Shown piece by piece: positions 4,292-20,900 of a DNA stretch of 24,535 bases. How positions within the stretch are numbered: position 1 is the stretch's first letter; the number at the start of each line of letters is the position of its first letter. A program made the translations under genes and the position numbers. The notes under the pieces were generated by a model. It worked only from the letters and a program-made list of their open reading frames with translations. It was not told the origin of the DNA and ran no database searches. The DNA is from a virus, in IMG/VR virus record IMGVR_UViG_3300030389_002517, positions 1 to 24,535 of that record; one strand, written 5' to 3'.

Positions 4292-5248
4292 TTAGATTTT
4301 GTAAATCTTAGATATTCGTAGCCCTTTGACTGTATCATTCACTAATTCTTCTACACTCATTTCTGTTACTTCCTTCTTCTCTTTGAAGCTATCCTTATAG
4401 AATGCAAGAGAGAAGGGTGGACGTTTCATTTGTTTCTTATGCCAGCGTAATGAACTGGTGACCTTCTTGTCGAACTGTTGCAATGTTACACCAGCCTCTA
4501 CCATATCGATTGCAATGTTGATTTGTCTCTCATCCCATCGCCAGTTTCCACGACTTTCGAGTATGGTATCGCACTTGTGTGCGTAGCACTCACATAACTT
4601 TATAGCTAAATCTCTACTAGTATTCTTATTAGTTAATGCTAATGAGTTACATACAACTTCATTAGGTTGTGCGCTTATACAACCTGATTGGGTTGTGTGC
4701 TTGTCATTATTTGAAAAGTTATCCACAGGCTCTACCGTGTTGCACTGTGCCACATGGTCAATAGTATTCTGAGCCTCTTCACGTTGTTTATTTTCATCCA
4801 TTGCTAGCTCCATAGAATGCAGTTCGTCTACCGTTATTGCTGGGTCATATACAATGCGATACAGGCTCGTCTTATTCTTCTTGCGTAGTGATGAGCCTTT
4901 ACGCAGTATTTCGACATAGCCGTATTCAACCAGTAGTTTTATGTGTTTGCTGATAGCTTGCTGGGATTTGCCCAGACGTTTCGATAACAGAGCTTGTGAA
5001 GGAAAGCACATACCACTGTAACTGTTTGCGTAGGAACATAGCGCCATCAATATAATGAGTGTTTGAGGTCGTTTGTGTAGCCGTGCATCGTTACAAGCGC
5101 GACTGGGCATAATCGTATAGCCAGACGGTGCTAGTTCCTCGCCAGTCATATGCTCAGTTGGCACGTTTAGTATCTCCTGACGCGCCTGTTTAATACGTTC
5201 TACCCTCTCATTTTTGGGTAGAGAGTTTGTGTTGCTCATATCGTTCAT
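4292..5248 (-). CDS. Winged-helix replication initiator / replisome organiser-like protein
   Basis: This 318-residue protein is probably the phage replication initiator. Residues about 45-115 form a winged helix typical of initiators and HTH_36 proteins: KRPQTLIILMALCSYAN, CFPSQALLSKRLGKSQQAIS, then KHIKLLVEYGYVEIL. A polar linker of about 100 residues follows, then a helical C-terminal part (RWDERQINIAIDMVEAGVTL, then KRPPFSLAFYKDSFKE). This is the lambda O/DnaD-like design: a DNA-binding N-terminus, a linker, and a C-terminal domain that recruits a helicase or loader. The linker-coding DNA carries two iteron-like repeats and a DnaA box (separate entries), as the lambda origin lies inside O. 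ATG 5248 was chosen; ATG 5239 and TTG 5257 are alternatives. It overlaps the DnaA-domain gene by 41 nt. The C-terminal assignment is inference. Confidence 0.72.
   Translation of the reverse strand: MNDMSNTNSLPKNERVERIKQARQEILNVPTEHMTGEELAPSGYTIMPSRACNDARLHKRPQTLIILMALCSYANSYSGMCFPSQALLSKRLGKSQQAISKHIKLLVEYGYVEILRKGSSLRKKNKTSLYRIVYDPAITVDELHSMELAMDENKQREEAQNTIDHVAQCNTVEPVDNFSNNDKHTTQSGCISAQPNEVVCNSLALTNKNTSRDLAIKLCECYAHKCDTILESRGNWRWDERQINIAIDMVEAGVTLQQFDKKVTSSLRWHKKQMKRPPFSLAFYKDSFKEKKEVTEMSVEELVNDTVKGLRISKIYKI
4653..4704. repeat. Two abutting 26-bp direct repeats (iteron-like) inside the initiator gene
   Basis: Unit 1 is 4653-4678 and unit 2 is 4679-4704, directly joined. They match at 21 of 26 positions, sharing ACAAC at the start, ATT and GGTTGTG in the middle, and GCTT near the end. 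Each unit contains an inverted pair, ACAAC/GTTGT in unit 1 and ACAACC/GGTTGT in unit 2. Because 26 is not a multiple of three, the two copies are read in different codon frames. The repeat is therefore kept at the DNA level and not as a peptide repeat. They fall in the initiator's linker-coding region (about codons 182-199). Likely binding sites for the initiator, by analogy with lambda ori. Confidence 0.65.
4719..4727 (+). promoter_or_regulatory. Consensus DnaA box
   Basis: TTATCCACA, an exact match to the high-affinity bacterial DnaA box, lies 14 nt after the second 26-bp repeat. The intervening sequence (CATTATTTGAAAAG) is AT-rich, which would suit duplex opening. I noticed no other exact copy in the window. 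It is coding sequence of the initiator gene, whose 3' neighbour in the map encodes a DnaA DNA-binding domain, so it may bind host DnaA, the phage protein, or both. Confidence 0.6.
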
Positions 5249-5537
5249 GTCGTGCAATGATACTCTGTATTCTCTCTTCTACTTTTATCAGCATGTTACG
5301 TACTTTATCGGTCAGCTTTTTAGCCTGGTAATACATGATGGTTGTGTGGTCACGTTGTAGAAACCGTCCAAGTTCTGGATAGCTCGATGTAGTATGACGC
5401 AATGCAATCAATACAAACACATGACGCGCATCTGCCTTCTTGTTACCATTATGTGTCCGTGGCTTCTGAATAAGCTGGTTTAAAGTAACTCCAGTGATTT
5501 CGTGTACGCATTCCACAATGTCTGCCAAGGTAATCAC
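5208..5537 (-). CDS. Stand-alone DnaA domain IV (DNA-binding domain) protein
   Basis: From GTG 5537 the product has 109 residues and matches the C-terminal DNA-binding domain of DnaA almost end to end. It has an opening helix ITLADIVECVHEITGVTL, a basic loop (QLIQKPRTHNGNKKADARH), a helix HVFVLIALRHTTSSYPELGR, and the signature LQRDHTTIMYYQAKKL. The last corresponds to the G-R-D-H-T-T-V helix-turn-helix of DnaA that reads DnaA boxes. No AAA+ domain or Walker motifs are present, so it cannot itself open DNA. The frame extends upstream to 5696, but that part lies inside the DUF1064 gene. GTG 5537 sits just after that gene's stop and begins exactly at the domain; GTG 5573 (GGTGGA upstream) is a second choice. 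It precedes the initiator gene and probably serves replication or titrates DnaA sites. Confidence 0.82.
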   Translation of the reverse strand: MITLADIVECVHEITGVTLNQLIQKPRTHNGNKKADARHVFVLIALRHTTSSYPELGRFLQRDHTTIMYYQAKKLTDKVRNMLIKVEERIQSIIARHERYEQHKLSTQK

Positions 5538-5539
5538 TT

Positions 5540-5860
5540 CTAGATTTCCGTAATCACCAACCCTACGTAACACGCTTCCACCAGTTTCTTTTTCAATCGA
5601 TAGACAGATGTCTTGTAGCCTTTGACGTCTTCCACAACAATCGCACTGCCATTCGGTGTCAATTTTGTATATTTGAAATCCGCGATGTAATTGCATATGT
5701 GTCTCCCACCAATACTTATGTCAAACTTGGGCTGTAATTCCAGCCGTTCTATCTCTCCAGCACTCTGCAAGGCCCTCAATTCTACGTACCGTTTTGCTTC
5801 TTTTTTGCTGGCAAAGGAAACCCCATCGATTTCGGTTCGTTTAGCTCTGTACTTTGTCAT
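5540..5860 (-). CDS. DUF1064-type PD-(D/E)XK nuclease
   Basis: This 106-residue protein matches the DUF1064 phage family over its length. It opens MTKYRAKRTEIDGVSFASKK, then EAKRYVELRALQSAGEI, ELQPKFDI, YIADFKY, VVEDVKGYKT and YRLKKKLVEA. The fold is predicted to be a PD-(D/E)XK nuclease. The candidate catalytic residues are all present: E21 in SKKEA, D61 in ADF, and E77/D78 with K80 in EDVKG. Such proteins are thought to cut branched or structured DNA during phage replication and recombination, but I know of no firm substrate. It overlaps the methyltransferase end by 20 nt and lies between it and the DnaA-domain gene. A restriction partner for the methylase is conceivable but less likely, since DUF1064 genes are usually found without one. 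Confidence 0.82.
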   Translation of the reverse strand: MTKYRAKRTEIDGVSFASKKEAKRYVELRALQSAGEIERLELQPKFDISIGGRHICNYIADFKYTKLTPNGSAIVVEDVKGYKTSVYRLKKKLVEACYVGLVITEI

Positions 5861-6992
5861 CCTCTATCTTTCTGATCACAATACCGATTTGCTCTACAAT
5901 CTGAGGCACTAGCGCATTTCCCAGCGCCTTTAGCTTTTGTGTTCGCATTTCTGCCCCTTTGATGATTCTGGGAATGTCTGGTGGCTCGAAGTCAAATCCT
6001 TCATGTCTAGCCAGCCTCGCGGAAAGCCCATCATCCAGCATACCCAGTCTGGATTTAATGTTCCTTGTTCCCAATCCTCTTTTGTTGCTCCTCTTATTTC
6101 GGGATGATTGCCCAGCATTTTCTGCATATTCCCATTCGGTGTTCCGCAAGCATCCTCGTTTGCGGTCGGTGTCGGGTAGAGTTTTTCGATATGATTTACT
6201 GCGTCCTTCAGCTTCACTCCCCAGCGTACTCCGTCCTTGTTCTTGCGTGAGAACGAGCCGTTCCGCAGTTCCACATTCTTGACTACTCCGCCCTCGATGT
6301 CTGACACGCGAGGTGTCGGGTACATCCGCATGGTCACTGGGTTGACTTGCTCCCTTAGATTTGATGGACGAGTGCGACCTTTGCGGTGTCCTTCCATCAT
6401 TTTCTGGGTGGCTGCCGAACTCCTCTGAGGTAGATGATCCATTGTATTGGGTGTTGCCCACCAGCCACTGTTCATTGACGGTGCTAGCTGGTTCGCTTTG
6501 GCGGTTGGTGTGTGCAATAATGAAGATTCGGTTTCTGAGGTGCGGTGCATTGACGGAGCAAGCTGGAAGACAAAATGTTTGGACTTCGTAACTGGCTTTA
6601 TCTTCCAAGTCAGATAACACGCGGTCGAGCCCCAAGGCGATGTGTCCAGCCACGTTTTCAAAAATGCACCAGCTAGGCTGTTTGGCTTGCACAATCTCAA
6701 ATATTTCTCCCCAGATATAGCGGTCATCTTTTTCGCCACGTTGCAGTCCAGCGACACTAAATCCTTGGCATGGGTATCCAGCGGTGAGGATGTCGCAGTC
6801 TGGAACAAGTCTAGCTGGGTCACGCGCAAGCTCCGTTACATCTTCTGCAATCGGCACATGTTGCCAGTGTTTTTTCAGTATACTGCGACACCAGGAATCC
6901 AGTTCGCAGAACAAAACTGGCTCTGATAAGCCAGCCCATGACAACCCTAATGCAAACCCACCGATGCCACTGCATAAATCAACGTGCCTCAC
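5841..6992 (-). CDS. C5-cytosine DNA methyltransferase (Dcm-type)
   Basis: The enzyme transfers a methyl group from S-adenosylmethionine to cytosine C5 in DNA, probably to protect phage DNA from host restriction. The 383 residues show motif I DLCSGIGGFALG (5-16), motif IV GYPCQGFS with catalytic Cys75, motif VI ENV (112-114), motif VIII ending in R153-N-R155, and motif X ALGNALVPQ (about 356-364). The segment from about 160 to 340, where the target-recognition domain should be, is poorly ordered in appearance. It is rich in Ser, Arg, Asn and Thr, with recurrent D-T/N-T motifs (PDTSRVR, PDTDRKRG). This oddity coincides with a second reading frame on the same DNA (5930-6823). The start is GTG 6992, overlapping the regulator gene by 14 nt. 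The target sequence cannot be deduced, and no cognate endonuclease is evident. Confidence 0.9.
   Translation of the reverse strand: MRHVDLCSGIGGFALGLSWAGLSEPVLFCELDSWCRSILKKHWQHVPIAEDVTELARDPARLVPDCDILTAGYPCQGFSVAGLQRGEKDDRYIWGEIFEIVQAKQPSWCIFENVAGHIALGLDRVLSDLEDKASYEVQTFCLPACSVNAPHLRNRIFIIAHTNRQSEPASTVNEQWLVGNTQYNGSSTSEEFGSHPENDGRTPQRSHSSIKSKGASQPSDHADVPDTSRVRHRGRSSQECGTAERLVLTQEQGRSTLGSEAEGRSKSYRKTLPDTDRKRGCLRNTEWEYAENAGQSSRNKRSNKRGLGTRNIKSRLGMLDDGLSARLARHEGFDFEPPDIPRIIKGAEMRTQKLKALGNALVPQIVEQIGIVIRKIEDDKVQS
5930..6823 (-). CDS. Nested gene in a second frame of the methyltransferase: conserved phage protein with TPTA and MGFP-x-GW motifs
   Basis: A 297-codon frame lies entirely within the methyltransferase gene, same strand, +1 frame. 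It begins at GTG 6823 with GGAG 7 nt upstream and gives MTQLDLFQT. I recognise the following from phage/prophage proteins often labelled hypothetical or cytosine methylase: AFLKTWLDTSPWGSTACYLT and W-K-I-K (residues 53-75), FQLAPSMHRT (86-95), LLHTPTAKAN (102-111), ATPNTMD, YPTPRVSD (168-175), YPTPTANED (216-224) and LNPDWVCWMMGFPRGW (256-271). These are too many and too well ordered to be chance. The D-T/N-T motifs of the methylase are the other-frame reading of the TPTA repeats. Both start codon and ribosome site look usable. Function is unknown; it may act with the methylase. The alternative is that database hits in this frame are themselves mistranslations of dcm-like genes. Confidence 0.62.
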   Translation of the reverse strand: MTQLDLFQTATSSPLDTHAKDLVSLDCNVAKKMTAISGEKYLRLCKPNSLAGAFLKTWLDTSPWGSTACYLTWKIKPVTKSKHFVFQLAPSMHRTSETESSLLHTPTAKANQLAPSMNSGWWATPNTMDHLPQRSSAATQKMMEGHRKGRTRPSNLREQVNPVTMRMYPTPRVSDIEGGVVKNVELRNGSFSRKNKDGVRWGVKLKDAVNHIEKLYPTPTANEDACGTPNGNMQKMLGNHPEIRGATKEDWEQGTLNPDWVCWMMGFPRGWLDMKDLTSSHQTFPESSKGQKCEHKS

Positions 6993-17949: not shown

Positions 17950-20900
17950 CTATCCTGTTACAAAATATATGGTGTTGCTGTCTGGGCTACTGGGCATACT
18001 CGCAACTACGCTGAGATGATAGTTATCTACTGTATCTGCATTGGTAGCAGAACCACCACCGCCACCAGTTGCATCGGCTGCATTCTCCCACTTGGAAGTG
18101 TTACTATTATATTTTAATACTTGCCCATTACTTAGACTACTTAGGCTTACATCTGTCAGTGAACTGACAGAACCGCCACCACCAGCATCAGTCGCTGGTG
18201 ACCATGCCGACCCATTCCATTTGAGGACCTCGCCAGTATTCGGGCTGGTAGTTGCGACATTAGCTAAATCAGATAGGTTGCTTAGAGTGGACAGTAACGT
18301 ACCGTTCCCTGGTGGGATGTCCATTGTAAAATTACCACTGCTTGGGAAAGTGGAATGGGCTGGTGCGCGAAGTGCTTGGTAATGTTGATTTGTCGTTTCA
18401 CAGTACAATCGAACTTCAGAACGTGTGCCTGTATTTTTGATACTAACAATACCGCCAGCTATCTCAATACCACCAGTAATGTCGGTCAAATTTGCATTGG
18501 CAGTAAAACTACTGTCGTTATTAAAAATACTTAATGGTATCTCGTTTGCCGCCTTACGTCTGTCTGCTCCATTATCTAAAACAATAAACTCATCTGTGCC
18601 GACCATTGCTTGCGTCATGTCGGTAAGTTCAGATAAATCTACATCTAATGTTACAGAACCACTATCACCACCACCGCTCAACCCAGTGCCGGCAGTAACT
18701 CCTGTTATATCTCCAGTGGGTATGGTTGGCGTGTTTGTAAAGTTATTATAATCGAGATAATAGCTAGCAGCTTGACTGTTTAATTGTGTCGCGTTTGATG
18801 CCGTACCAGTTAAAGCACCTACAAACGTGGTAGCAGTTACAGTACCGTCAGTTTCAAGTGTCACTGCATCAGTTGTTCCACTCGACCTAATTTTCAATTC
18901 ACCGAAATTTATTAAAGTTTGTGTATTAGGTAAATATTGTAAACCAGCTTTGTTATAAACAGTTTCAGCAACTCCACTACTAGTATTAAGACCTTGTGTG
19001 AAAAGTAGATAATGTGTCAACGCAGAGGTGCTTAATGCTTCAACCTTTACTTGGTCTGCGGAACTAGCAGTTGACGCATTACCAGTGAGAGCGCCTACAA
19101 AGGTTGTGGCTGTAAGTGTGCCGTTTGATTTTGTAAATACAAATCTGTCTGTACCGTTGTCCGTAATTTTCACACTATCGGCTGGACTTTCCAATTCAAT
19201 TTCTAGATCAGAATTTGTATCGTCATAAAAAATCTTAACTGCGTCTGTTGTATTGTTTTGTGAATAATATCTAATAAAGTTACCGCTTTGGTTAAAGTCT
19301 AATACAGAGGTTCGTAGCGTACTAAATACCGTCATGTTTGCACTTGGATGGTGGTATGGAAACCCATCTGTTTCCAGTGTTTCTATTGTTGCAGTGGCGT
19401 TGTTAGCGTCAACCATCGTCAAATAACGTATATCACTGCTACCAACTATTTTTGTTGTTTTGATGGTGTCTGCACTAGCCACGTTACCAGAGCTTGTTAT
19501 ATATCCAGCACCATTAGTCAGTTGGTTATTGTTGGTTGGTATCGTTGGTGTATTAGATAAATCATTATAGCTACCGCTAGTAGCCACAGTAGCAAACCCA
19601 GCTTCGGCTGGTGTCTGGTTGATAAACTTGCCAGTAGACCCATCGTAGGCTATGATATCGTTATCGGCTACGCTGGATATTGTTGTGTCGGTTAACGCCA
19701 CCAGCGTAGTCGTCAGCGTTGGAACATTAGTAAAGTTATTATAGTCGAGGTAGTAAGAACCGTCTTGGTCATCTAATTTATCCACATTTAAATTTGCTAC
19801 TTTGGTGGTTGAAGTAACAACTAGTGGAGCAACACCAGTATTTTGCGTTATTGTTATTGGATCGGTAACTGAAATATCATTTGCATTTATATCAGCAAAG
19901 AAACCGTTTTTCGCTCTAACATCAAGAAATCTATTAGAGCTAGTTCCTAATGACAAACCTTCGTTGCTTGATGGGTGTAAAGATGTTGCATTAAATGTTA
20001 ATTTGTTTGAACCACCAACAAAAAATCTAATTATGTTATCGGAAGAACCTGATATTTTAGTGTTTCCATCACCATCTATAAGTAAATCGTTTCCATTTAA
20101 ATCGAGGTCACCTGACAATGATAACGTAATAAAACCACTATCATTTGTAAGGTCACTGGTTGCACTTGGAATTGTCGGAGTTCCAGACAGGTCACTATAA
20201 GCGCCAGAAGTAGCTACGGTTGCCAAACCAAGATTTGTAACAGCGTTAGCTTTTTGTGTTGCTGTAAGCCCTTGGTTATTGACGTCAATCCGTAAACGAT
20301 TGCCTAAAGCATTAGTCACAGTCGTATTAAAGTTTGGATCATCATTTATAGCGGCTGCAATTTCGTTTAAGGTATCTAATGTACTGGGTGCGCTATCGAC
20401 AAGTTGTGCTAGTTCTTGCTGTACAAATGCAGTAGTAGCTATTTGTGTTGTAGATGTATCAGCACTCGCGGTTGGTGCTGTTGGCGTTCCTGTAAGGGCT
20501 GGTGATGCTAGTGGTGCTTTAGCATCTAAAGATGTCTGTAAGTTGTCTACGTTAGCAATAGTATGATTATGGCTATCATCAGCAATAACGATTGCATTAT
20601 ATGTACCAGATACATCACCGCCAAAGCTGGTGGATGTTGTAAGTGCTGTGCTAGCTTGTTGATAATATGTGCCTTCTTGCCCATCTAATTTATCGGCATC
20701 CAATCCAGAGCCAGTACCATCATTAGTTGTATCAAAAAATCCTAGACCGCGAATATCACTGGCATTCTGGTCAGCAGTCGCACCTGTCTCTATGCCATCA
20801 AGTTTAGTATGGTCAGCATCTGTAAAGACATTACTATCAGTAGCACTAGCAACCAACGCACGTATCTCGCTGTCTGTTTGGTCGGCTGTTGCATTATTTT

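Follow-up and report, generated by a model that had tools for sequence, protein, structure and literature searches.

In phage lambda and the lambdoid phages the replication origin lies inside gene O, where iterons with inverted-repeat symmetry lie in mid-gene beside an AT-rich tract (PMC7466680, PMC5043065; NC_001416), and two iterons together with the AT-rich tract make up the minimal unwinding unit (Dodson 1986, cited in PMC7466680). An origin within the initiator gene is also found in the pSK41-type RepA_N plasmids, under the linker between the DNA-binding N-terminal domain and the DnaD-like C-terminal domain; the chimeric plasmid pPR9 has an initiator with a phage-like PF13730 helix-turn-helix N-terminal domain, and DnaA boxes were not detected in the staphylococcal plasmids (PMC5703833). 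The iteron plasmids P1, F, RK2 and pSC101 bring iterons, a DnaA site and an AT-rich tract together, and their initiators cooperate with the host DnaA (PMC5043065). Within the open-access literature, to which the search was confined, no description was found of a phage origin that places a DnaA box within its initiator gene.

The locus described here lies in a virus record of 24.5 kb, the whole of which was analysed and is called the window below; its source is an uncultured, probably marine phage. The segment 4593-4727, which falls inside the initiator coding sequence 4292-5257, is very probably the replication origin of this phage, where initiator dimers are predicted to occupy the iterons and DnaA the box. 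The inverted iterons in mid-gene and the adjoining AT-rich tract are shared with lambda, so that the window has lambda's minimal unit; the position under the linker codons is shared with the pSK41-type plasmids, the Pfam family of the N-terminal domain with pPR9, and the joint presence of iterons, DnaA site and AT-rich tract with P1, F, RK2 and pSC101. The features of the region are as follows:

4292 to 5257, minus strand: replication initiator gene, 321 codons from the TTG at 5257, with ATG 5248 or 5239 as alternative starts
4853 to 5104, minus strand: winged helix-turn-helix codons (residues 52-135), recognition helix SQQAISKH, pLDDT about 90 over most of residues 51-120
4625 to 4738, minus strand: low-confidence linker codons (residues 174-211), pLDDT below 50, containing the box and both iterons
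4719 to 4727, plus strand: DnaA box TTATCCACA (TGTGGATAA in the sense of the gene), exact consensus
4679 to 4696, no strand assigned: iteron 1, ACAACCTGATTGGGTTGT, an 18-bp inverted repeat, ACAAC-N8-GTTGT
4653 to 4670, no strand assigned: iteron 2, ACAACTTCATTAGGTTGT, an 18-bp inverted repeat, ACAAC-N8-GTTGT, 26 bp from iteron 1
4593 to 4652, no strand assigned: AT-rich tract adjoining iteron 2, 75% A+T, at the 99th percentile of the gene's 60-bp windows
5208 to 5696, minus strand: gene of a DnaA domain IV-like protein, PF08299 at E 8e-12, with an RDHTTIMY signature and without an AAA+ domain
5540 to 5860, minus strand: DUF1064 gene (PHROG "Holliday junction resolvase"), a conserved upstream neighbour

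The initiator consists of an N-terminal winged helix-turn-helix, a disordered linker and a helical C-terminal domain, the last of which spans residues 213-298 in an AlphaFold2 model that was built with 23 homologues and has a mean pLDDT of 72. It matches PF13730 (HTH_36) at E 4e-13, and the PHROG families that it matches are those of replication initiation, O-like and DnaD-like proteins (E 1e-12 to 1e-8). Foldseek and VIA returned generic winged helix-turn-helix proteins and no strong full-length match; the PDB matches to this domain include the plasmid initiators 4pt7, 4pql and 5kbj, which we take to be pSK41-type RepA_N initiators. PF13730 was present in 23 of the 23 homologues, while neither RepA_N (PF06970) nor Rep_3 matched the window initiator or appeared among the 25 commonest families of those homologues.

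In the proposed mechanism the winged helix-turn-helix, put forward from the model as the iteron-binding domain, would bind the two palindromic iterons as dimers, and DnaA, most likely that of the host, would bind the TTATCCACA box on the flank. Initiator and DnaA would then bend the DNA, the AT-rich tract 4593-4652, proposed as the unwinding element, would open, and the C-terminal domain of the initiator together with DnaA would bring in the helicase and replisome of the host. Recruitment from the host is suggested because a DnaB-type helicase, a DnaC-type loader and a family A polymerase were lacking in the related records searched: no match to DnaB_C, DNA_pol_A or IstB/DnaC (PF01695) was obtained in 15 related, incomplete records searched for these three families.

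A sequence-only reading had proposed, from the letters of the window, that the initiator gene houses an iteron origin supplemented by a DnaA box; its coordinates and letters were found correct on re-reading. Between its two abutting 26-bp units (4653-4678 and 4679-4704), 21 of 26 positions are indeed identical; the ACAAC/GTTGT dyad is present in each (at 4653-4670 and 4679-4696), and 14 mostly A/T bases past the units comes the exact box at 4719-4727. Box and iterons correspond to codons 177-202 of the initiator, within the low-pLDDT linker, and the 26-bp pitch shifts the frame (HTTQSGC... vs AQPNEVV...), in agreement with the argument that the repeat is not kept for the peptide. The exact runs within the 26-bp repeat are 7 bases long, and an exact-repeat search misses it. 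The AT-rich bases that had been pointed out between the units and the box are present, but the tract richest in A+T is on the far side of the iterons from the box. GC skew, which had been recommended as a check, tracks gene orientation and gives no origin signal, and promoter and terminator scans of the window stayed at chance level.

Taken by itself, the window is less decisive. A second exact TTATCCACA occurs at 19778-19786, within a tail-fibre-like gene without iterons, where it is probably due to chance; the box is thus not unique in the window, and a single box alone means little. When the window's initiator gene was shuffled among synonymous codons, an exact box arose in about 5% of the shuffles and two palindromes of the same word in 2.4%, and the joint architecture, with the box and the palindromes close by, in 9 of 40,000. 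The signal from the window alone is moderate; the relatives make it overwhelming.

A direct search of viral contigs with the window initiator gave no match, and annotated phages searched in the same way gave weak winged helix-turn-helix matches only. Relatives were gathered by a terminase search, which yielded 80 viral loci, in most of which an initiator homologue directly precedes the terminase genes; about 50 initiator homologues adjoining terminase genes were found. In the closest relative (L002), the initiator of which has 58% protein identity, all 29 of the motif bases (box and half-sites) are the same as in the window, against 20 of the 46 spacer bases (Fisher P 6e-8); the layout and spacings are unchanged and the iteron arms identical, whereas the gene outside the origin is 59% identical and its third positions 37%. 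Relatives with the same protein and freely diverged DNA at these sites had been named as an outcome that would speak against an origin, and this comparison with the flanking codons shows the sites to be kept. Among 27 non-redundant initiator genes, with pairwise identities below 85%, 19 contain an exact box, where synonymous shuffling predicts 1.5, and the density of boxes is about 190-fold higher in initiator genes (36 in 46.5 kb) than in their flanks (2 in 498 kb). What recurs in the linker of the relatives' initiators, with box and iterons persisting down to about 25-30% protein identity, is the box, two to four palindromes of one word and an AT-rich flank. The palindrome words are ACAAC..GTTGT (18 bp), ACAAG..CTTGT (16 bp) and TATTCC..GGAATA, and in nearly all relatives the 60 bp past the last iteron, on the same side as in the window, rank with the most AT-rich parts of the gene. 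The proposal of the sequence-only reading is thus backed by the relatives.

The arrangement is not found throughout. Three relatives (L034, L035, L033) lack an exact box in the initiator but have a DnaA-like gene and clean ACAAG iterons, of which L034 and L035 carry four each, and on their sequences would be natural box-loss variants; the exact box was not found in the initiators of L030, L040 and L041 either, of which L040 and L041 carry TTATCAACA. Neither box nor iterons were found in the homologues of L044, L066, L069, L074, L055 and L075. The nearest cultured relative by terminase (67% identity) is the OM43 phage MEP301, whose gp55, a "hypothetical protein" of 201 aa (L082 113-718; MW452941 34057-34662), is an initiator homologue (E 3e-27); box and iterons were looked for in its gene and neither was found, so not every member of the group has the origin. 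No initiator homologue was found in the part of the EXVC031P Hodr genome that was examined.

The gaps between the box and the first iteron in initiator genes of the ACAAC and ACAAG classes cluster at 9-12, 21-22 and 32-34 nt, which suggests that box and iterons are placed on one face of the helix. Helical phasing as such (gaps of 11, 22 and 33) was not retained beyond a suggestion, the best period being 11.5 nt and not 10.5, and tandem 12-bp boxes inflating it. Such tandem boxes, three or four of them, mostly at 12-bp spacing, precede the iterons in three other initiators (L052 gene 3693-4718, L198 and L171); in L052 the palindrome that comes after them is a different one, TGATGACA..TGTCATCA.

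The iteron word could also be compared with the recognition helix, in 57 non-redundant initiators with a clear iteron class. With ACAAC..GTTGT, one position of the helix is K or R (SQQAIS[K/R]) in 24 of 24 cases, and with ACAAG..CTTGT the same position is Q, H, E or L in 33 of 33. Class and residue change together in a single switch on the tree; because there is one switch, a test on independent pairs is unable to reach significance, and the match of word and helix is a consistent observation rather than statistical proof. It fits a winged helix-turn-helix that would read the iteron directly.

The pattern was also searched for in DNA alone, as a box, 5-34 bases and one iteron, over 2.9 million viral contigs. 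The ACAACC form was found at 54 loci and the ACAAG form at 86, and the matches fell inside profile-recognised initiator genes in 52 of 54 cases (ACAACC) and 68 of 89 (ACAAG), figures with a mild circularity, as about a dozen matches came from records that also fed the initiator profile. With the box scrambled as a control, the 86 loci fell to 7. The exact spacing of the window (box, 22 bases, two iterons) was matched by L002 and by a new contig, L233, in both cases in initiator genes. Applied to bacterial and archaeal contigs (257 Gb), the ACAACC pattern had two matches, both by chance and neither in an initiator. One of them, apparently in Nocardiopsis (L230, about 6933-6978), is itself a tight cluster of DnaA-box-like words, possibly a chromosomal origin.

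Granted that the origin is real, the box might serve not the host but the phage's own DnaA domain IV-like protein, for instance by excluding or replacing the host DnaA. A DnaA DNA-binding domain had been placed two genes' breadth from the initiator; the gene in question, 5208-5696, is in fact the adjacent upstream one and overlaps the initiator start. Its product has a Bac_DnaA_C fold by PF08299 above the cut-off and the DHTT/S signature, and aligns to domain IV of M. tuberculosis DnaA (3pvp, E 9e-5) with RDHTT retained. That such a protein is encoded immediately upstream in the window, and that a PF08299-type gene occurs in 17 of 49 related records, speak for this reading, which is nevertheless unlikely, since box and gene come apart in both directions: the box is kept without a PF08299 match in seven records (L017, L019, L042, L047, L018, L052, L081), and the gene is present with the exact box absent in L034/L035, L030 and L040. 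The connection that had been drawn between box and phage protein is thus weaker than proposed. Because the box is kept where a phage DnaA-like gene was not found, the host DnaA is probably its usual reader, and the phage protein would be an optional extra. A more elaborate version, in which the ATPase-less domain IV protein would compete with or replace the host DnaA and so switch a DnaA-gated, lambda-type phage origin (perhaps also the host oriC) on or off, is doubtful.

The DnaA-like gene starts inside the DUF1064 gene and with its first ~52 codons overprints the 3' end of the latter in a different frame (window 5540-5696); L017, L019 and L046 have a short ORF left in that DnaA-like frame, without a DnaA domain. 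Further upstream, a 299-codon ORF on the minus strand (window 5930-6829) lies wholly within the cytosine methyltransferase gene 5841-6992, in a different frame, and matches a second PHROG methyltransferase family (phrog_1008, E 9e-24), which suggests two overlapping methyltransferase genes at 5841-6992.

A different function for the same sites would be that of an intragenic operator, at which the initiator or another winged helix-turn-helix regulator paces or represses its own operon, the box being a regulatory DnaA site. Palindromes for a winged helix-turn-helix dimer do resemble operators, the domain of the initiator resembles MarR/ArsR repressors, and DnaA doubles as a transcription factor. 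The sites, however, lie some 530-605 bases into the gene, under linker codons and not at a promoter, and the AT-rich tract is found on a fixed side, as in the lambda and pSK41 origins (PMC7466680, PMC5703833), which makes an operator improbable; initiators can moreover combine both roles, and an origin need not be excluded even by an operator.

It is very improbable that the constraint comes from the protein, with the linker keeping a repeated peptide (NKxQLV, PVDN) and the DNA repeats simply following. The copies of the ACAAG class share a frame in 84 of 108 cases, giving N/HKxxLV, and boxes on the minus strand mostly encode xVDN or xVDK, as this explanation would have it. The linker is predicted to be disordered, however, the signal is lost in synonymous shuffles, the 26-bp pitch of the window changes the frame, and the iterons occupy all three reading frames among the relatives, copies in other frames encoding different peptides. 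The box likewise occurs in several frames, on one strand in most relatives (peptides xVDN/xVDK, PVDN among them) and on the opposite strand in L003, L004, L005, L006 and L018, where it encodes LST, VIHK or SYPQ. The sites are kept at the level of DNA and are not peptide-driven. A transcription terminator or RNA hairpin, flagged by the scan at 4676-4699 on the plus strand, is hardly credible, as it would be antisense to the gene, the 5 terminator-like sites of the window are within chance of the 3.5 (sd 1.9) in shuffles, and the words of box and half-sites are kept although a hairpin does not need them for its stability.

To our knowledge, uncultured phages have hardly ever had their replication origins identified. 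If the segment 4593-4727 is the origin, that of a whole phage family would be readable from sequence to the level of the base, and the pairing of iteron word and recognition-helix residue would offer a two-part code that can be tested. A conserved dependence of these phages on a DnaA box is indicated, and with the origin lying within the initiator gene, site and protein would be inherited together. Since the related records searched yielded neither a DnaB-type helicase nor a family A polymerase, the origin is also a likely point at which these phages take over the host replisome. Inverted iterons of the lambda type, set in the initiator gene, would here be joined with DnaA co-initiation of the plasmid type, two things usually described apart.

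P1, F, RK2 and pSC101 have their origins outside the rep gene. Most of their iterons are direct repeats and bind monomers (PMC5043065), whereas those of the window are inverted, and their initiators are of the Rep_3 type (PMC5703833), whereas that of the window is of the PF13730 type. The pSK41-type origin belongs to a plasmid whose initiator has a RepA_N domain, the one described here to a phage whose initiator has none. MEP301-type phages have a recombinase, YqaJ and terminase/structural genes in an order comparable to that of the window (PMC8024684; MW452941), and no polymerase gene was reported for MEP301 (PMC8024684); its gp55 is short and without box or iterons, in contrast to the window initiator with its 321 codons and both. 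Lambda O has its DNA-binding domain at the N-terminus, as does the window initiator, which matches the PHROG "O-like" families; unlike the window initiator, the lambda O gene contains no DnaA box within one mismatch (NC_001416), its iterons have other words and pitches of 20-24 bp instead of 26 bp, and a DnaC-type loader was not found in the 15 related, incomplete records searched. The best reading of these sequences is therefore that of an intragenic origin of the lambda/pSK41 type that would also recruit DnaA, in which features of both designs appear to be combined.
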